This document shows, piece by piece, positions 1-11,200 of a DNA stretch of 64,000 nucleotides. The DNA is taken from contig JAJEKV010000059.1 of the NCBI GenBank assembly GCA_021234155.1, positions 1,876,182 to 1,940,181 of the forward strand. The letters run 5' to 3'. The DNA comes from Isoetes taiwanensis (taxonomy: Eukaryota > Streptophyta > Lycopodiopsida > Isoetales > Isoetaceae). The notes beneath the pieces were generated by a model that searched no databases, was not told the origin of the DNA, and was given only the letters and a program-made list of their open reading frames with translations. The position numbers and the translations under genes were made by a program. Every line of letters begins with the position of its first letter. Position 1 is the stretch's first letter.

Positions 1-246
1 TGCTCATCCCTTTTTTCGGGCCCAAAAATTCCATGAAGCAGAACAATGAGGCTTTTTCGAACCCCTCAAGAAATGTGTCGTGATACTCTGTATTCATCTC
101 CAGTTTCAAAATTAGACAAAAGTATACTGGGTTGCCTAAAATCTTCTTGTCATCCAATTCAATGGGGAAATTTTGGAACTCTTTATGTTGGATTGATGGA
201 ACTGAAGAGCATCTGTAGCTACAGCGGAGCTAAACATGGTCAATAG
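1..246. other. Left flank of the 8-kb element
   Basis: This stretch lies outside the left inverted repeat. A 66-codon open frame (46-246, plus) ends just before the repeat, but I recognise no family in it. It may be a fragment of an older sequence interrupted by the insertion. No convincing continuation of it is visible after position 8275. Confidence 0.3.
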
Positions 247-266
247 GATTGCAAATTAAACGAGAG
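247..266 (+). repeat. Left terminal inverted repeat
   Basis: GATTGCAAATTAAACGAGAG matches the reverse complement of 8256-8275 at 19 of 20 positions. Homology stops abruptly on both sides. Confidence 0.75.
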
Positions 267-619
267 TGTTATGCCGGCCTCGCTTCAAAGATTCCCTTTA
301 AAAACACTACTCTTTTAAAAGTGGGACATTTTTAAAAAAGTTCATCACTTTGGAAATCTGTACACTCTCGACATGCAATTTCTACCCCCCTGCAACTTTT
401 TAACTTCACATCTCTTGGCAAGGTTTGCCAAAAGTAGCTCTTTTTGATCATCGATGTTAATTTATAAAAGATTAAGTCTAAAGAACATCAAGCTAGAGGA
501 AGCTAAAAAACTTTCTGCACTTATTTTTGCAAAATATCTGAATTAGGCATATCAACATTCAACTATTTCAATCATTTGCACACTAAACCACATGGAAGTC
601 ATAATTTAACACAAGCAAA

Positions 620-3600
620 TTAAGTAAAGTCATATGTAATTTCATCATCATCATTTTTGCTTTGCTGACCACTCTCTTGCACTACTGATTTCTCCTTGTC
701 AGGTGACTTAGGCTTCTCTGTTGTTGCTTGTTCTTCTAGAACAACAACCTCAGCTACTTTTTTAAGCTCAACGAAAGTGGCTTCATCACTTAAGCAGCTC
801 GTAAGTGGAGGTTGCACCTCGGAAGACGTCAGCTTGGCAAAGTCTGAAGATGATTTGGCCCCAAGCTCTTGGTTCTCATCTGGAAGAGTTGGTAAGGCAG
901 CTAATCTTGTTTTTATAAAGTTGACGGCCTCTGCATCAATGTCCACTGCTACACAATTACGACCTTTTTTTAGTGCACAAGCAATTGTAGTACCAGAGCC
1001 AGAGAAAGCATCAAGCACCCAATCTCCTGGACGAGAAAACATATCCAGGAGATGGTTGATTAGCTTTTGTGGTTTTTGGTACTGGTTTACAACCCTGCCT
1101 TGTGCAGTAGGGTCCTGCAATTTCTGTAGAACGGCCGGAAATTCCAACACATTGGAAAAGTTTTGACAAGCAGCAGTGTTAAAATGATCCATGGTTCTTT
1201 TGCCATCAAAACTCCAATAAGCAACATGAAGATATTCGACCTTGCTCAACAGCCTTGGCCCTCCACCATGGTAGTTTATATTAGTTTTGTACCTGCACCA
1301 GAAACATTGGCAATTTAACAAAAGAAATCTTATTCTGGAATAAAAATGCATGACGTATCGTCTTAAGAAAACATTCAAACTAGACAAGTTTGGATGCGAG
1401 TAAGAAAATTACCAGACGAGGTTCTCAAATCCTGCTTGTGTAGGAGAGCTAAAGTGCTTAGCAAAATTTGACTCCACCAAATCAGCTTGCATGCTTGAAT
1501 GAAAGACTACCAACCGCCAATGCTTTGCTGTTGTCACTTCCTTGATGCCATTAATAAAATCATTGAACTCTAAATTTTTGAATGGTTCATCATCATAACG
1601 GCTGTCCTTTAGCTTAAACCCATAAGGAAGATCTGCAACTATAAGTGTAAAGTCTTGGGGCTTTACCAAGCCAGCAAGTCTTCTACAGTCACCCTGTTGG
1701 ATTGCATATAAATTATTTTGGTCAAACATTGTAAACTTTTCATAGTCAGAGGGAGCCACAGGGACCATAGCTCTTCTGGAAGCTAGTGTTCTTTCCTCCC
1801 TTTCTTCCCCGACTAAGTTCATGAAGCCCTCTGGCAAATCCTTGTTCTTCTTCTTATTCTGTGAAGAATTAATTTGTTGTGAGTCAACCAGCAGATTGCT
1901 TAAACAACAAGGCATATAAAAACATACCCAGCCTTCAAAGTTTGGAGCATATTGTGAAATCTTTTCATCAGTTGTCGAGCTAGGGTAAAGCTCTCTGCAT
2001 CTTTCCCAGGTCTCAATATTTAGTTGTTCCATTAAGCAAGTCTGGCAGGTAATAACATTTTTTTGGCTGCAGACATTCGGATGTTAGCTACTTTGTAAGC
2101 AAGCCAGAGAAATGCTAAACGGCACAAAATGAATACTTATTCCAGAATACAACAAAGTAAAACAGAGCATGGTAATCAGGTGCAATCAAGTCGATAAGTC
2201 ACAAATGTTTCTAAAGAACAAGTCACAAAACAAAGAACGTAAAGAACTGTATTCCAGAATAACTAAATTGTTTCCATAAAAACGTTTTTTCAAGAAATTT
2301 CACTTACTTGTGCATTTCCTTCGACATTTCCTCTAAAGTGAAGTCCTTATCCACAACTTTTTGCAGCAACCGTTCTAGCAACACATTGTCTGTAACACCT
2401 TGCAGTTCCCTCCAAACAGTAATGGTCATCTCCTTTTTGGGAACATCGGAACCTTTCTTCTTGTCCGAGACCTTCCCTTTAGTTTTGAGCTCCCCCCTTT
2501 CAAACATGTTAAATATTTCATTCTGCAACTCTCAAAGCTGTGAGGACAAGCAAGTTTTGTTAGCAACAAGGAACAAAGCACAAAACTAAGTCTATTCCGG
2601 AATAAAGAATGTGCTTACCCGACCATCCCTGAAGGCTAATTGAAACCAGTTGTCGTGGCAGATAAGTGACTGTCTTTTGTTTGCCTCATCATATTTGAGA
2701 CAGCACTCAATGGCACACGCTTCCTTTAGCTCCAAAGAACAAGCAGGCTTTTTTATGTCTTCTCCATACTTTTCCTTTAAAAATGAGGTACTCTCGCGGC
2801 ATGAAACGAATTTTATCGACGAAGCTCATCTTTAATTTATACTCATTGTCAGCATTGTGAGTGTTGGCAATGATCTTTGCTTCTTCATCAGTCAAACCAA
2901 CATAGACTGCACAAAGAACAGAGAGGTACCTAGGGTTGTAATTTTCATTGTACAATTGTCTCCTTGCTTTAAAACTATGATTTCCACCAAGCACGTAATG
3001 CAAGTAACTCTCTGCATTTTCTTTATCATAGTCATCAGGGCTTTCACATTGCTCTCTGTCCACTAAAACAACAAGAGGGGCCACATGTGCGTTCGGGTTG
3101 CTTCTAATTCGATCCTTAAGATTCCTCAGATGGTCCGCATAAATCTTTCTTACCTGAAGGGGTCTTTCACCAGCAGCATTTTTAGGAGGCAACTTCAAAC
3201 TTGTCACTGGAAGATAGATGACACCCTGCACATGCTTTTTTGCATTTATCTGTTCCACTCTCTCAGCAGTCTTGTCTACCTTCTTTTCTCTAATTGCAAT
3301 CCCAGGAGCCTTCCCTTTTCCTTTTGATCTTTTTCTTTGTTGCTCATCATCTGAATCATCTTCAACATCGACTCTTGCCAATACTCTCTTCTTCGGTTCC
3401 TTTGCAGCCACAGTATCCCTCGGCACGCTCATTCCAAGACGTAAGTCTGAAGTTGAAACATTTAAATCATCGTCATCAAGGCTATCGGGTTCAACCTCTT
3501 CTTCCTCTGAAGCACTGTAACTAAAGTCCTCACTTCGGGAACCACAAATAAATTGCAACAGCTGTAGTAAGGTCTGCTTCTTAAGATAGTGATTCAAGTA

Positions 3601-4032
3601 CTTGTAAAGATGATCAGGCATGACTCTGTCAAGTTTAAAGTAGTTGTCATCCAGAATCATAAACCCCTGAGTAGTTTTAATCGACAAGCGTCCACTCTCT
3701 CCAGACTCGGTGGCAGCAGAGCTAACCTCGTGAATTTGTCCGATGCAGACAAAATCAGCATCTGGTAGAAGGCTCCTTCCCCTTCGCTGTGCAACATGTA
3801 GGAAAGTAAGGGTGGAGTACTTGTTTCTGAAACCCCTGGTTATGTACCACTGGGTCTTTGGGTTCTCATAAATCTTAGGTGGAGCTGACGCTTCTACACG
3901 TGCTTGGGGATGAGGTGTACTAGACTGACCTTTGTGTTTTTTCTGCTGAGAGTCCTTTCTGTTAGACCTGCAACATTTAGAAAAAAATTGTAAGCAAGTA
4001 GCTTCAAAGAACAAAAATTTCAAGAGTCTCAT
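620..4032 (-). CDS. ParB-like domain fused to N4-cytosine/N6-adenine DNA methyltransferase
   Basis: Splice sites support four exons: 3967-2619, 2522-2308, 2066-1413 and 1292-620. The start is unresolved: an ATG lies at 4032, but an acceptor at 3970-3968 suggests an upstream exon. Exon 1 holds an acidic/basic linker (DSLDDDD, KRSKGKGKAP) and then a ParB/sulfiredoxin-type fold, in which LRNLKDRIRSNP and YVLGGNHSFKARRQL match ParB boxes I and II. Exon 3 carries methyltransferase motif IV as DLPYG, and exon 4 carries the QKP segment and motif I as DAFSGSGTT followed by VAVDID. The order IV then I is that of beta-class N4/N6 amino-methyltransferases. The protein should methylate DNA, using ParB for site binding or loading (inference). 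Exon 1 runs into an out-of-frame ending near 2800-2815: the frame that reaches the good donor at 2619 is shifted by one base, so this copy may be frameshifted. The C-terminus is Lys/Glu/Asp-rich. Confidence 0.75.
1330..1343. repeat. Palindromic site in intron 3 of the methyltransferase gene
   Basis: TTATTCTGGAATAA is a core copy of the element-wide palindrome and lies within the intron 1293-1412. Confidence 0.65.
2138..2149. repeat. Palindromic site in intron 2, copy a
   Basis: TATTCCAGAATA, followed by C, lies within intron 2067-2307 of the minus-strand gene. Confidence 0.65.
2250..2261. repeat. Palindromic site in intron 2, copy b
   Basis: A second TATTCCAGAATA lies in the same intron, preceded by G, so its left arm matches the longer consensus. 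Confidence 0.65.
2593..2604. repeat. Palindromic site in intron 1
   Basis: TATTCCGGAATA, a perfect 12-bp palindrome, lies within intron 2523-2618. Confidence 0.65.
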
Positions 4033-4692
4033 TTATTTTGTTTTTAAAATGCATAAAATTAGCCTAGATTGCTGAAAATATGCTAAAAATATTCCTTAAA
4101 ACAACGAAAAACTAATCTTAACAGCTTCAATTTATCACAAGTTTTTGGCTAAAATTTAGGAAACATTTAGCTAAAAAGTACAAATTTTTGGAGACAAGGA
4201 GCCTAAATAAGTCAGTGTGTATTCCAGAATACACAGTGGTCCTCAGCAGAGAGCCAAAGTGTATTCCGGAATACACTTTGGCTCTTTGTGAGAACCATTG
4301 TGTATTCTGGAATACACTTATTGTACTAGTCTCCGTACCAAGGTGTGCGTCATGCTTACCTTTCCATGGATTTGTCTATGTAAAGTGGAATACGGCTGCA
4401 CTAGGTTCCGTCGAAGGCGCTGGAGGCGGCGACTTGGGTTGTTAAAGCGGAATATACTACTGTGGCGCAAAAAATTTTCGTTTTAAAGGTGAGGTTACAC
4501 ACTTACAAGCTTTCTATGTGTAATAGAATACAATTCTGATAACGTACTTGCAATTGTGTATTCGAGAATACACTTTTGTATTCTGGAATACACTAAAGAA
4601 TTTTGGAATACACTATTGTATTCTGGAATACAGTGTCACCATGCAAAAAAAAGGTGGTTACTAATTTTAGCTTTCTTCTTTCAGTTCTGACA
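4033..4692. promoter_or_regulatory. Divergent promoter region with clustered palindromes
   Basis: This 0.66-kb region separates the two divergent genes. It contains six full copies of the 18-bp palindrome GTGTATTCYRGAATACAC or its 16-bp core: 4216-4235, 4250-4285 (extended), 4300-4317, 4556-4573, 4577-4592 and 4617-4632. Half sites lie near 4387, 4449 and 4605. A pyrimidine-rich tract ending in CAG just before the plus-gene ATG suggests a leader intron. The placement suggests operator-like binding that controls both genes (inference). Confidence 0.65.
4250..4285. repeat. Perfect 36-bp palindrome
   Basis: Each 18-base half is the exact reverse complement of the other, centred at 4267/4268. 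The centre is the element-wide motif GTGTATTCCGGAATACAC; the outer arms begin AGAGCCAAA and end with its complement. Confidence 0.9.
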
Positions 4693-7600
4693 ATGGCGGG
4701 TTCAATGTTCAACAAGCTTCCTCCACCATTCCAACCATCTGATTCATCAAATTCTGAAGGAACCACTGTTCAAACCAGGTTTTGCTGTGAGGGACGAACT
4801 TCTACAACCCCTACTTCTACAAGGTGCTTGCTCCACTTGGACGAAACGCCAAGTCCTTTAATAAGTAAACTGCCACAACCGTTTATCCCATCCCCAAGTC
4901 CACACGGGGAAACACCTCCTTTCTCAGCCACTCCTCCTGTTTCTACTAAACTTCCAGCACCTTTTGTTCCTTCCCCTGAAGTTGCAGAGGTACCACCTCA
5001 ACGATTTATTCAGAGTACACTACCCCCATCTTTTGTACATTCTTCTACTTCAATCACACACAAAAGGCCAGCAGATTTCTCTAAAGAATGTCAAATACTG
5101 CACAACTTCTCCTACCAAGATCTAGCTACAAACGAAGATAATGTTGCAGAGTTCCAGTCCACAACAAGGACGATGTTTGCAGCCACACCTCTTCAACATG
5201 ATGCTTCAACAAGTGCTGCCACAACAAGTTACAACCCTTCTCCTCCTTTCAATATTTGCCCTCCTCCATGTCCAGGCACAACATCACGTGGTCTTTTTTC
5301 TTCAAGCACACAACTGAACTCTCAAGAGGTCATCCCAAGAGTTGAACCTTCTTCAGATGATGACGACCTTGACCAAGTACAGCAACAAGGTTATGTGTTT
5401 TCTAACCAAGCTTCAAAGAAATTTAAGGTTGATTTAACCTTGCGTGCATGTTCCTCTGTAAGAAGAAAAAACCTCATGGACGAACAGAAGATGAGGAGAA
5501 TTTTGAGAATAAAATGCTGCTCAAAAAATTGCATCAGTAAATTTAACATGTCTGGACTTCGAGCAATTCGAGATACTTACAGTTCAATGTCTCTAGCAGA
5601 ACAAAATAGCTACTTAGCTTATCGTGTAAGACCAAACTACAACACCTTGCACTACATTAGTGGTGAAGAGGTCTGTCAAAAATGCTTCATGCTTGTTCAC
5701 TGTCTGGGCTCCACTAGAATGTCTCGAATACACAAAAGAATGGACAAGATCCCAGACATTAATTATCATTGTGGTCCGAGGAGAATTGTTACAATGCATG
5801 CACTGTCTGCTGTTTCTTGGATGGACAGATACTTTATAGAAACGTGTGAAAAGTTGCCAAACAGCGACATGTACCATTTATCAGACAACATCACAAAAAA
5901 AGATATTTTTCGAGAGTACAAAGAGACATGTGTCCAATCTCAACACATCTCTTATGCTCACTTTACTAGACTGTGGAAAAGTGAATTTGGCCTTGTGAAA
6001 ATACCCAGGAAGCACAGGATGCTTGTTTGCTCCAAATGTGCAGAATTAAAAAGTCAAAGAGAAATGGCTAAGACAGAATTAGAGAGAAGTAAGTTCATGT
6101 TTTGTTTTCAAAATTTCTTTTCCTTTTAAGTTGTTAACCAACTTCCTTCTTTAGACGTGGTGCAGCAGAATCTTGCTAGACGTCGTGAACAACAAGCAGC
6201 AGAAAGAAGAAAGCTTGCTAAGCACAGAAAAAAAGCTTTGGAACGTCCACTGCAATACATGTCAGTTGTGATTGACGGGATGGATCAGAAAAAGACTACC
6301 CTGCCTCATTTCCTGAACATTCCAAAAGATGTACCAGAAGAATGCTTTGTCAAAGTCCATCTTGTTGGAGCTATGGTCTTCAAAGGAAGTTTAAAGTGCA
6401 AAGTATTCTTGACATATCCTAACATACATGGTGATCCAAATCTCACTATCACCATACTAAATAGGGTACTGTGTGAACAAGACCAACTGCCTCCAGTTCT
6501 CTATCTGCAACTTGATAACACTACTAGGGAGAACAAGAACCAAACTCTCTTTGCATACCGTGCCATGCTAGTGGAACTTGGGATCTTCAAAAAAGTGAAG
6601 CTTGGATTCCTTCTTGTGGGGCACACTCATGATCAGATTGATCAAATGTTCAGCAGATTTTCTGTGCGTCTTCGTAGAAAAAGGGCATTCCGACTTCCTA
6701 CTCTTATTCGAGCTATTGAGGAGTCTTACACTCCAACACCTGTTGTTGAGCTGCTCCAAGAAACTGTAGATTTCAGAGAATTTGTCTTCTCCTCTCATTC
6801 CAACAGAGAACAAGCTGTACACAAGTTGAATGATCTAACTTTTCAACATCATGTCAAGTTTTTCATGAAGAGCGGTGAAAGCTTCTTACAAGGAAAGAGG
6901 TACGCCACAACTAAAGAATGGAGTCCATCAGAGGGATTGAGATTCCTCAAACTAGTTCCAGACAGTTCCTTAGTTGAACGTGCTGAACAGATGCCTCTTA
7001 AAAATCCTAAAGAGGCCAAGCAGAAGAAAAGTACTCCAGCTGCCTCCTTGAAAGCCATTGAGAGTGGAATCTCATTGGGCTTTAAGTATTTTACAGAAGA
7101 AGACCAGAACTGGTGGAAAAGTTTCTTTCTTGAACAAAAAATTGTCAATGAGAATTTATTCCTAAGACAGTTGAAGCAACCTTTTCAGTGGCCTAATTCC
7201 TTCTTCGAATCACAGAACCAGGCAGGTCCAAGCAGTGCCCCAGTAGTACTTCCAACAGTGGAAGATGAGGACCGAGTCATGTATCTTGGACCACGCCGAA
7301 GAAATGAGCCTGTGGGTAATATCACAGAAATTACTAAAGGTATGCTTATTGCTGTTCCAACTGTAGAGGATGACAAGGGTCGACCTTTTTGGATAGAAAA
7401 AGTAATAGACACGGTCAAAGAAGAGGGTTTAGTTACTAAACTTAAGATTCATTGGCTAGCAACACGTTCAGAAAATGCCTTTGAAGGAAGGTATGAGCTA
7501 GAAATGAGATCTCAAGGAAAAGGTAAGAAGTCAAAGAAGGTAGATTGCAGGGATGAGGTAAGCCTAAGTGAAGTGAGTATTTTGTGTTATAATTTTAAGT

Positions 7601-7848
7601 TAAGATCTGACAATCGTCTTCGATAGAGGACCATTAACTTACTAAAAAAAGCATGTAACTATGAGGAAGAAGAGGAAGAGGATGGCAATGCTTCACCATC
7701 TGTCGATAGTGATGAAGAAGACAACTCGAGTACTTCCTCAAGTGACAGTGAAAGAAGTGAAGGTGATGAAGATGGTATTAACGAAATAGATGATGACTTA
7801 GATCCCTCATTTATTGGTCCTCACACTTTACTGAACACTCCAAGGTAG
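4693..7848 (+). CDS. Transposase-like protein with candidate D/D/D core (DUF7869-like)
   Basis: Three exons join in frame: 4693-6088, 6155-7557 and 7627-7848 (stop TAG 7846-7848). The N-terminal third is Pro/Ser-rich with four copies of a KLPxPFxPS-type motif. Then come Cys clusters (KCCSKNC, VCQKC, LVCSKC) and a conserved core beginning MSVVIDGMDQ, continuing with YLQLDNTTRENKNQ and ending with VGHTHDQIDQMFSRFS. This pattern matches a large family of eukaryotic proteins that I know as DUF7869-type. The three acidic positions (IDG, LDN, IDQ) look like an RNase-H-fold metal site, so transposase activity is plausible but inferred. The C-terminal part has a GMLIAVP...FWIEKV segment resembling a chromatin-reader-like barrel, then Lys-rich and Glu/Asp/Ser-rich tails. 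The gene is divergent from the ParB-methyltransferase gene and shares its promoter region. The reading frame is intact. Confidence 0.75.
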
Positions 7849-8255
7849 AGAACAAGTCTATTCCAGAATACACTTTACTTGCTAAGTGTAAATTTTGCAA
7901 ATACACTTTCCTCAACAAGTGTAAATTTTGTATGTAGTTCTAAATATTTTATTGTGAAATTTGAAAATACATGAACTTTTCTTACGGACTTTTCTTCAAT
8001 TATTTCTACAAATCAAATTCCCCTTGATTCAAATTTCTCTCTAAATATTTCTTTTCACGTGAAAATTTAGCTGTAAAAAAGTGTCACTTTTTGCTGGTAA
8101 TTTGCTCTTCCTGCAAAAAAAAATTGACAATTTTGGGGGGTTAAAACACAAAAAATCACCTCTGTTTTTGTATTTGACCTCATTTGACCCCCTTTTAGGC
8201 CAAAATACAGGGAATCTTTGGAGAATATTCCTTTTGCTCCCGTTTTGATGATTTC
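7849..8255. other. Non-coding right part of the 8-kb element
   Basis: This AT-rich stretch holds one palindromic motif copy (7859-7870, TATTCCAGAATA), repeats of an AAGTGTAAATTTTG word near 7895-7930, a 14-bp palindrome TTTTCACGTGAAAA (8052-8065), and a pair AAAAAGTGTCACTTTTT near 8078. No gene is seen. Confidence 0.5.
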
Positions 8256-8275
8256 CTCTCGTTTAATATGCAATC
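8256..8275 (-). repeat. Right terminal inverted repeat
   Basis: Read on the minus strand this is GATTGCATATTAAACGAGAG, one mismatch from the left arm at 247-266. Confidence 0.75.
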
Positions 8276-11200
8276 ATGTTGGTCATGGCATTTACAAAAT
8301 CGACGACTATGCTTAAAAGAGTTCAAAGATGAGCCATAACTGAACTTTTTCATAAATGTTTATATGCAGATGATTGCACTTCGTTTGGACAGATGGGGAG
8401 GCGCAAGAACCAACATAATGTATGCACAAGAACCCCCATAACCATGGATCAGACCCAAAGAGCCACCAAAGAAATTTCTAGCCATATCCCCCTGCAGATT
8501 TCCGCAAAGAATCAGCCCCGATGCAGCCATGGCCGCAGGGAAAAAAGGAGGTAAAGTTTGCTCCCCTATTTCCATATTGTAGGGAAAAGAAAATTGGGCC
8601 TCCATTTCCGATCTAGCCAGTGACCCGCGACCGGCGGTACCGGCTAGACTGAAAATCGATCCTCAATTTCCTTCCACCATACATTGTTTCTCCTCAGGCT
8701 GAAACTATACCTGTTGAATGGGTTTTAAGCACTTACGTTGGCAAATTTTTGTTGTGCTATGATCGCCCATTAATTGGATCCAAATTCCTCAAGTTTAGGG
8801 ATATGTATTACCATCACAATACTAAACATGATGCTCAGAAAGAAGGTTTGATTCTGTCTATTACTCCACCCTCCTTGTCGGATGGTCCTTTGCCTTTTGT
8901 CCAGACTAAATTGATAATGTTGGATGGAACTGAAAAATTTCTATGCCAATTGTATTTGATAATAAGTATAGCAACATACTTGAGTTATAGGAAGTAACAT
9001 TGCCTAGTAAGACATCGTCTAAAAGGTTACAAATAGTTATGAATGACTAGGCTCATGCAACTGAAACCCTCTTTGGTTATCGCTCTTTAAAAGATGAACT
9101 AAATTGTGCGAAGATGTATGTGGTTTATCGCCCATAATGGATGATCGTGATACTGCCAAACCTGACACTTGTCCTGCATTCCTATGACTCATACCATCTC
9201 TAATTGCTGCCCTTCTTGAAAGATTGCAGAGATATCGTCAACATTTATCATCTCAGAATTGGTTCGTGCTGGACAAAATAACAGTCGTAAGTTGGTCACC
9301 TTAAGATAGCACGAACCAATTGTTTGAAATTTAATGAAGATCACGAATACGTTAACCTCTAGTTGGCAGGTGAATCCGATGGCTTCAGTTCTGGTAATCA
9401 TTGATGAAGAGGAAGAGAACTTTGATCCGGATTAATTCTTTGCCCAAGCGAAACTCAGAGTCTCAATGCATTTCTTCACCTGGATGTTGACCTGGATTTT
9501 TCTCTAGTTAGCCATATTGAAGAAATATATACAATTGAGCAGCTAGCCCTTCTGCGTAAATACAGTTTTGAGGATGGACTATTAGTTGAAGGTTTTTGTC
9601 ACAGGCCAAGAATTTGGAAAATAGAAGCAAGGTTTAAGAATCAAACAAAAACATTTATTTATATAAGAATTTAACGCAGCGGCACATCCTTTAGTTCCAA
9701 TCCAGTGAAGCTGGAATTTACCATGAGCTCCAGGCCTTACGTGTTACCGCTATGCAATAGATTCTTGGACATTCAAGATCACGGATTAGAAAAAGTTGAT
9801 TGGGAAGAGTTGATACGGATGGATAAAGCTTGAAATGTCATAAAAGAACCTTCGATTAAATTGTATTTGCTCTTTCTAGTTATATAAATATATGGTTATT
9901 AATGAAGCATATGAGTTGGAATGTTTTTTATTTGTTTCATTACTATTTCATGCTGTCATTATTCATTATTTATGCATCTGGCGATCTTGGATGAAACATT
10001 GACTTCGTTTTATTGTAGGGCTCATGTGTTTATTCCAGATCATCAAAAGCCAAAGACACTGTCAAAATTCAAATACCTATAAGTTGGGAATTTTTCTATC
10101 CCAACTTTGATTCAAAAAAGGAAGTTAGCTATGGTGAGCTATCTTGGAGAATTATAATAATAGTGGCTTCAATATAAAAGTATGAAATCAATAGTTTTGA
10201 TCTTGCAGATAGAAACTAGAATGCGAATGAAGATAAAATGTGGTACATGTCGTTTAAGGAGAGAAACATGGTTCTTCCTCACAGCTAATTTCAGATCAAC
10301 TAATTCTAGGATGCCTTAAAAAGGTTGCATAATAAATTGAGATTGTTGCGCACTCCCATTTGAAGATTCCCTTCTAAAAAACATATTACCTATTTGAGAT
10401 GGCCTTTTTAGGGTTAAGTCCAAAAATTCATGGTGATTGCAATTTAAAATGTGCTATTTTAACTCCAAAAGAAAAAGTAACATTAGGTTAAGTTCAAAGC
10501 GGCATGGTGATTAAAATTTATAATATACTATTTCAACTGCATTCATTCATTTTACTGTTGAATAATTGTGAACAAAGGACAAAAGAGGGATATTTGTAAT
10601 AGATCACAAGTTAAATTAGAACACTAAACATAAGTGCAAGGTGTGAAAAAAGAAGTAAACATAGAACTTTCCAGTTAGAAGAAGAAGTAAAGCACCAGAG
10701 CATGTCAAATTTGTCTAGAGAAGAACCTAATCAATGTTTCCAAAATTTCTGTGTATATTGGAATAGTATTGCCAGTTGCTCATGCACTCTTATGTTATTC
10801 TAGATTAGGACCTTGCAGTCTTACGCTATTCCAGAATACAAATCTAGAGCTATAGTTTGACTTGCATGCACCACCCTAGTGTTCAAAAACCCCTCCAACA
10901 TGTCAAATTTTGTTTAAATATTGACATAGCATATGTTATCTTGCTCGAACATGAAGGTAGCAATTAATGCACATCAAAAGCATGGTTGTGTGCGTTCTCA
11001 AATCAAAGCATGGGGATTTGAGCTCTAAGGTCTTTTTCTTGTTGTTGTGGGTGGACGAATGTCCGTGCCACAACATGTTCACAAGATTACTAAAAAAGGA
11101 AATGAGATTAGACATTTACAAAGAAACATGGAAATTACAATTTACAAGTTACAATTCTATTTGACTTAATAATGCTATAGTGCATCACGTAAGAATATTG

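Follow-up and report, generated by a model that had tools for sequence, protein, structure and literature searches.

The window, a stretch of 64,000 nucleotides from the genome of Isoetes taiwanensis (contig JAJEKV010000059.1), contains a copy of a DNA transposon at positions 242 to 8280. The element carries two divergent multi-exon genes: one encodes a protein with a DUF7869 region, which we refer to as the transposase, and the other encodes a putative fusion of a ParB-like domain with an amino-methyltransferase (Table 1). Palindromes are arrayed between the two genes and within introns.

The first-pass annotation of this DNA described a 20-bp inverted repeat around two divergent multi-exon genes and took 247 to 8275 as the limits of a transposon-like unit. 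The repeat is there (247-266 and 8256-8275 are 19/20 identical) and it does enclose both genes, but the ends lie 5 bp farther out on each side. The full terminal repeats are 22/25 alike. We searched the genome (1,658,258,908 bases in 1110 contigs, or 1.66 Gb) for the end pattern GATTGCNNATTAAACGAGAG, allowing at most 2 mismatches, and found 854 + 847 = 1701 matches, versus 24 + 16 = 40 for the reversed control. The consensus 25-bp end is AACAVGATTGCRWATTAAACGRGAG, as derived from the window copy, the C976 copy, and ten further end pairs (facing ends under 15 kb apart among the matches listed, excluding C976 and both C1066 copies); the left end in the window has AATA. Beyond the 25-bp ends, the sequence varies among these 12 copies apart from a 4-bp direct repeat. 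An earlier idea from the flanks of the window and C976 copies, that the element inserts into palindromes, was dropped: the 12 copies show 4-bp duplications instead, some of them self-complementary.

A script comparison found identical 4-bp flanks in all 16 copies compared (16/16), and these copies are not all of the same kind. For 12 of them, the ends had been placed by eye with the duplication in view. For L054, L055, and L056, which were the three of six loci with ends detected on both sides and the only ones of the six to enter the comparison, the flanks were compared after the ends had already been fixed. L061 was located in a search that demanded a 4-bp duplication, and for that reason it cannot serve as an independent test. 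The same search gave no end pair in L060 or L063, and an end pair in L062 that lies inside the methyltransferase gene was taken as chance.

Two other insertions (C130 and C232) have empty sites: when the two flanks are joined around a single copy of the 4 bp, they match elsewhere in the genome, unbroken, with best identities of 94% and 99% (among the best 40 of 80 and the best 40 of 49 candidates). Because of the common 25-bp ends, the 4-bp duplications, and the uninterrupted empty sites, we take 242 to 8280 to be the transposon unit, and the window copy is a genuine DNA transposon. Both of the insertions with empty sites (flanks at L013 to L016) sit in repeated sequence that, by eye, looks like the reverse transcriptase of a long interspersed nuclear element.

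The element and its flanks recur in inverted orientation about 0.2 Mb away (L001, C1066:2094800-2104700) with 98.7% identity, as either a segmental duplication or an assembly duplicate. This copy was left out as an independent insertion, its flanks being duplicated along with it (98.7% over window positions 1-9000). The C976 copy (L002) has an internal 112-bp tandem duplication at 730-953. No coding remnant of the element was seen in the rest of the window (8281-64000).

The two genes also occur together elsewhere. We searched the genome by exon and scored the best 40 of 1057 candidates for the transposase, the best 40 of 1058 for the ParB exon, and the best 146 of 3504 for the methyltransferase. 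At least 16 of the 40 scored transposase matches, counting the one in the window, have a scored methyltransferase exon no more than 13 kb away, and all of these pairs are divergent; the count is a lower bound because only the best candidates were scored. Both genes are present in 10/10 copies that were picked by their paired ends (L023 to L033, with the C54 copy as two loci), and most of these copies are decayed. We also considered ten loci of other families, taken from the best 150 of 9908 DUF7869 candidates; these were absent from the window-family lists and had long open frames or other profile coordinates. Within the DNA fetched, the ParB part was found in 8 of the 10 (L060-L063, L067, and L069-L071) and the methyltransferase part in 6 (L060-L062, L067, L069, and L071); the L070 stretch ends within the ParB part. 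The proteins of L060 to L063 are 49-54% identical to the window's in the DUF7869 exon and 46-53% in the ParB exon. These counts agree with the linkage that the first-pass annotation had proposed, and its reading of the region as a transposon is likewise borne out, by further copies with the same ends and by the two empty sites. The two genes form a stable module, whose autonomous form is a DUF7869 transposase with a divergent fusion of a ParB-like domain and a beta-class methyltransferase.

In Pfam, the transposase matches DUF7869 (E = 1e-50) and nothing else, and we found no mention of DUF7869 in the literature searched. The segments IDGxDQKK, QLDNTTRENKN, and GHTHDQIDQMFSRF, which lie in or just ahead of DUF7869, are conserved in 5/5 aligned sequences. 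From such conserved segments, including QLDNTTRENKN and GHTHDQIDQMFSRFS, we infer candidate catalytic acids of a DDE-type active site. The C-terminal part (7336-7550), with KGMLIAVP...FW...KV...LKxHW, is largely conserved across the 5 aligned sequences and lies outside the Pfam match. By eye, there are cysteine-rich segments at about 5511-5704. The C976 copy has one stop codon in the first transposase exon.

The last exon of the other gene matches N6_N4_Mtase from Pfam (E = 2.8e-17), and because DLPYG (motif IV) comes before FSGSGTT (motif I), we predict that the methyltransferase is of the beta class. FSGSGTT is invariant in 7/7 aligned copies; DLPYG is present in 6/7 and reads DLSYG in the seventh. 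ParB-like profiles from PHROG match 6 of 8 different proteins, with E values from 2.4e-6 to 0.033: these are the window copy (a weak match, 0.002), L002 (0.014), L054 (0.0045), L055 (0.033), and two proteins of sister families that match phrog_1033 more clearly than the window copy matches its profile (2.4e-6 for L060 and 9.4e-4 for L061). In an alignment of 8 sequences, the ParB segments that are best conserved between families are RxLQVRK, GG[NT]H[ST]xKA, DxEAK, and HNxDN. The N-terminal part of the protein (3544-3924) is partly conserved within the family, has about 22% identity to L060, and has no Pfam match above the cut-off; it is a candidate specificity or reader domain.

We did not find outside relatives when comparing the ParB exon to phages, the ParB alignments to viral contigs and bacterial genomes, or the methyltransferase alignment to viral contigs; scans of these collections can detect a relative only if it has the short peptide patterns on which they were based. 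Among phages, 1164 records match the methyltransferase exon, all below 60% identity. In two of these records that were examined, with one protein scanned in each, there was a match to N6_N4_Mtase and none to ParB. Sequence searches of the PDB yielded no meaningful match: one gave four matches, the best with E = 0.58, and the other gave none up to E = 1.

To describe selection, we used the ratio (omega) of the nonsynonymous to the synonymous substitution rate (dN and dS), computed by a script with the Nei-Gojobori method. Between the window and C976 copies, omega is 0.26 for the transposase, 0.13 for the ParB part, and 0.28 for the methyltransferase. Against 20 methyltransferase copies, the window copy has a dN of 0.14-0.26, with a dS that is inestimably high in 15 cases and 1.9-2.9 in five. 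Four of the 20 supposedly stop-free copies proved to contain stops when read across both exons, which left 16 copies and 120 pairs, 48 of them with dS below 0.6. Omega was 0.26-0.77 in the five closest pairs, and its median was 0.10 (range, 0.06-0.60) in pairs with dS from 0.05 to 0.6; omega is biased downwards here, as the copies were picked for being stop-free and best-scoring. Such a pattern, with omega high at the tips and lower at depth, is as expected from decay after insertion combined with selection between insertions, and the methyltransferase is under purifying selection. Separately, within window positions 2619-3966, two pieces of the ParB exon have dS values of 0.43 and 0.29 relative to L002, versus 0.03-0.12 elsewhere in both genes, which would fit an exchange of this stretch with another subfamily.

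Table 1. The transposon in the window and its parts. Splice sites of both genes were placed by reading the sequence.
Feature	Positions	Strand	Details
Left target-site duplication, GGTC	238-241		Identical to 8281-8284
Left terminal inverted repeat, 25 bp	242-266	+	Methyltransferase end
ParB-methyltransferase gene	620-4367	-	Six exons: 4367-4360, 3967-2619, 2522-2308, 2066-1928, 1858-1413, 1292-620
Methyltransferase motif I, FSGSGTT	986-1006	-	Exon 6
Palindrome core	1331-1342		Intron between two methyltransferase exons
Methyltransferase motif IV, DLPYG	1619-1633	-	Exon 5
Two palindrome cores	2138-2261		Cores at 2138 and 2250; ParB-methyltransferase gene intron
Palindrome core	2593-2604		ParB-methyltransferase gene intron
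ParB-like domain	2791-3261	-	GGNHSFKA ... LTDEEA ... N; phrog_723, 0.002
Three palindromes, GTGTATTCYRGAATACAC	4209-4319		Cores at 4220, 4262, and 4303; intron 1 of ParB-methyltransferase gene
Three palindromes	4556-4632		Cores at 4559, 4579, and 4619; between the divergent genes
Transposase gene	4693-7848	+	Exons 4693-6088, 6155-7557, 7627-7848; 1007 amino acids, open
DUF7869 region	6271-6906	+	Pfam stretch 6337-6906, preceded by IDGxDQKK at 6271
Palindrome core	7859-7870		Directly behind transposase stop codon
Right terminal inverted repeat, 25 bp	8256-8280	-	Transposase end
Right target-site duplication, GGTC	8281-8284

The palindromes, which the first-pass annotation did not mention, are far more frequent than in simulated sequence. 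With at most 1 mismatch, TATTCYRGAATA has 11 matches in the window element; 200 first-order simulations averaged 0.1 matches and never exceeded 2. Across 19 loci there are 226 palindromes, and none of them is in the coding matches, which span 60% of the length; L032, which is half of the C54 copy, is the only one of the 19 without palindromes. Over 206 cores of the form TATTCNNGAATA, the consensus is AAAGTGTATTCCGGAATACACTTT (motif A). The center of the core is CG in 80, TG in 54, CA in 51, TA in 6, and something else in 15, and the CG, TG, and CA counts are as expected if CpG is lost by deamination of 5-methylcytosine (5mC). There are 118 spacings shorter than 130 bp, and 74 of these measure 41 or 42 bp, or about four helical turns. 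The exact 16-mer of motif A has 6021 matches in the genome, wherever located, versus 2 for the reversed control. Outside the element, window positions 10796-10838 hold two palindrome cores 31 bp apart, one of them with a mismatch.

Other families have different palindromes. Motif B, CGGTAT[AG]AATT[TC]ATACCG, occurs in L060, L061, and L063, and motif C, GTCTATGCGCGCATAGAC, occurs in L062; neither is found inside coding matches. Exact matches in the genome number 7218 for motif B and 287 for motif C, versus 0 for each reversed control. Motif A was not found in these four loci (L060 to L063), nor were motifs B and C in 18 window-family loci. (These counts per locus used stricter patterns than the palindrome listing and are hence lower.) By eye, six more loci join the groups of motif B and motif C (L066, L067, L070, and L071; L068 and L069), and a TAT-N6-ATA frame is common to all three motifs. 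Eight palindromes in the six further loci that fall outside motifs B and C were left uncounted; two of them are in coding matches of L067. Also by eye, L067 has ten consecutive spacings of 27-34 bp, eight of them 30-32 bp, and L068 has three of 40 bp.

One would not expect a host factor to use three unrelated sites in comparable places in three related elements, and for this reason we infer that the binder is encoded by the element. The palindromes would then be putative cis sites of an element-encoded protein. By analogy with parS, the ParB-methyltransferase is the first candidate for that protein, and the transposase is its rival.

For this lineage of transposons with DUF7869 and a ParB-methyltransferase, the best explanation we can offer, and one that we believe about as much as we doubt, is that the ParB-methyltransferase recognizes the palindrome arrays of its own family and marks its own copies. 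The element is one copy of a large, old DNA transposon lineage with 4-bp duplications, AACA-type ends, and an 8-kb body. Much as ParB loads on parS, the ParB-methyltransferase would load on the arrays of its family, and it would methylate the family's copies at N4 of cytosine or N6 of adenine. Least certain is the last step: the mark may act on the divergent promoters and the introns that hold arrays, and so keep the element expressed or regulated against silencing by host 5mC. Self-marking, one of the possibilities raised in the first-pass annotation, is compatible with these observations and is strengthened by the palindrome arrays. We also propose, more tentatively and with less than even confidence, that each family has a private epigenetic code. 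Its ParB-methyltransferase would read its own parS-like array (helically phased at about 30-32 or 40-42 bp), would write N4-methylcytosine (4mC) or N6-methyladenine (6mA) only on its own copies, and would set expression or transposition independently of 5mC silencing; co-divergence of palindrome and protein would keep the families apart.

The palindromes could equally be sites for the transposase, since it diverged in parallel. The arrays would then be transposase binding sites or autorepression operators, and the ParB-methyltransferase would mark DNA without them. We consider this somewhat unlikely, and there is evidence on both sides. The transposase has the cysteine-rich segments mentioned above, its divergence is in step with that of the palindromes, three of the window palindromes lie directly upstream of its start, and L066 and L068 have palindromes beside the transposase and no ParB gene in the DNA fetched. 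However, known arrays of transposase sites, of the En/Spm type, sit near the ends of the element, whereas the window element has no palindrome in its first kilobase or its last 400 bp, and five of its palindromes lie past the transposase or in introns farther along the ParB-methyltransferase gene. It is improbable that the ParB-methyltransferase is a regulator or a host-directed effector, which methylates host or foreign DNA, with the palindromes serving as promoter or heat-shock-type elements for host factors. The core of motif A, TTCNNGAA, does resemble a plant heat-shock element, but motifs B and C do not fit one, and in comparable intergenic and intronic positions the three families carry palindromes that are unrelated to one another. 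Least probable of all, and already disfavored, is that the methyltransferase is a captured passenger that does nothing for transposition. Extra genes are indeed carried by many giant transposon families of Ectocarpus (from portions of PMC12477816), but the presence of both genes in all ten end-selected copies, of the ParB part in 8 of the 10 loci from other families, and the median omega of 0.10 argue against a passenger.

Several observations weigh against self-marking by a ParB-methyltransferase. The catalytic motif reads DLPYG, and the textbook motif of the beta class is [DNS]PP[YFW]. The ParB-like assignment is not uniform: PHROG gave no ParB-like match for 2 of the 8 proteins (L059 and L062), Pfam gave no ParBc-type match for the window copy and four family members (the best match was DUF6551 at 0.016, which is below the cut-off), and the sister-family proteins also lack ParBc in Pfam, where sub-threshold matches to unrelated families are similarly strong (0.0028 and 0.008). 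Single-sequence structure models were too poor to help, with a mean predicted local distance difference test score of 44 for the ParB region and 38 for DUF7869. The module is incomplete at some loci: L063 has the ParB part without the methyltransferase part in the DNA fetched, and L066 and L068 carry their family's palindromes with no ParB-methyltransferase in the roughly 5 kb of upstream DNA fetched. Finally, the ParB frame of the window copy is broken once, near 2790; the C976 copy stays in frame at this point and is open across all pieces of the ParB-methyltransferase. The break could reflect either a true mutation or a leftover error of nanopore assembly; the I. taiwanensis assembly was built from nanopore reads polished with Illumina reads, according to part of PMC8566536.

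Overall, the evidence from selection and linkage points to a methyltransferase that is a functional component of the element and no passenger, and a concrete candidate for its cis target is offered by the family-specific palindromes. With a single protein and a single oligonucleotide, the proposal that transposons bind and mark their own DNA can thereby be put to a direct test. Calls of 4mC or 6mA in plant genomes of this kind may stem from transposon enzymes and not from a host system.

CACTA (EnSpm) transposons have CACTA ends and 3-bp duplications. We rejected membership in that group: the Isoetes element has AACA ends and 4-bp duplications. Sola1 elements have 4-bp duplications. The same is stated for Sola2 elements in part of PMC3627910. 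The Isoetes element shares this feature in 16/16 copies, and the duplication is the sole basis for a putative assignment to Sola.

In the ParB-parS systems of bacteria and plasmids, palindrome arrays lie near the gene for a protein with a ParB domain. In its sequence features, the Isoetes element is similar, with a ParB-like domain and palindrome arrays near the gene; it differs in that the domain is fused to a methyltransferase and is encoded by a nuclear transposon. Bacterial-type amino-methyltransferases are also found in other eukaryotes. As described in sections of PMC8885841, N4CMT of bdelloid rotifers is a host gene with a chromodomain fusion, and the 4mC methyltransferase of Marchantia is a host gene without added domains. 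The Isoetes enzyme differs from both in being borne by a transposon and in having a ParB-like domain.

The closest known system is Sola1-1_Ec32, a 21.5-kb transposon of the brown alga Ectocarpus, in which a ParB-like domain and a predicted N4C/N6A methyltransferase are in one protein, encoded on the opposite strand to the transposase (from portions of PMC12477816). A citing sentence in the same source places similar ParB-methyltransferase proteins in transposons of green and red algae, and its sections on giant red algal elements call them EnSpm. Like these algal transposons, the Isoetes element has both domains in an opposite-strand gene within a DNA transposon. Unlike Sola1-1_Ec32, as far as those portions describe it, the Isoetes element is in a land plant, is 8 kb long, has at least 1701 end matches in its genome, and has family-specific palindrome arrays; the main text of PMC12477816 does not contain "palindrom." In the literature searched, which did not extend to the algal works that PMC12477816 cites, we found no ParB-methyltransferase element from a land plant and no palindrome arrays, and the main text of two Isoetes genome papers does not contain the phrase "DNA transposon." The statement in the first-pass annotation that no plant transposon had been described with both domains thus still holds for land plants, within that literature, but the pairing itself has been published for algal transposons (PMC12477816, in the portions cited above). 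Our results add a vascular plant to the algae in which ParB-methyltransferase transposons are known: the pairing of the genes is already known, and the land-plant lineage and its family-specific arrays appear to be new within the literature searched.

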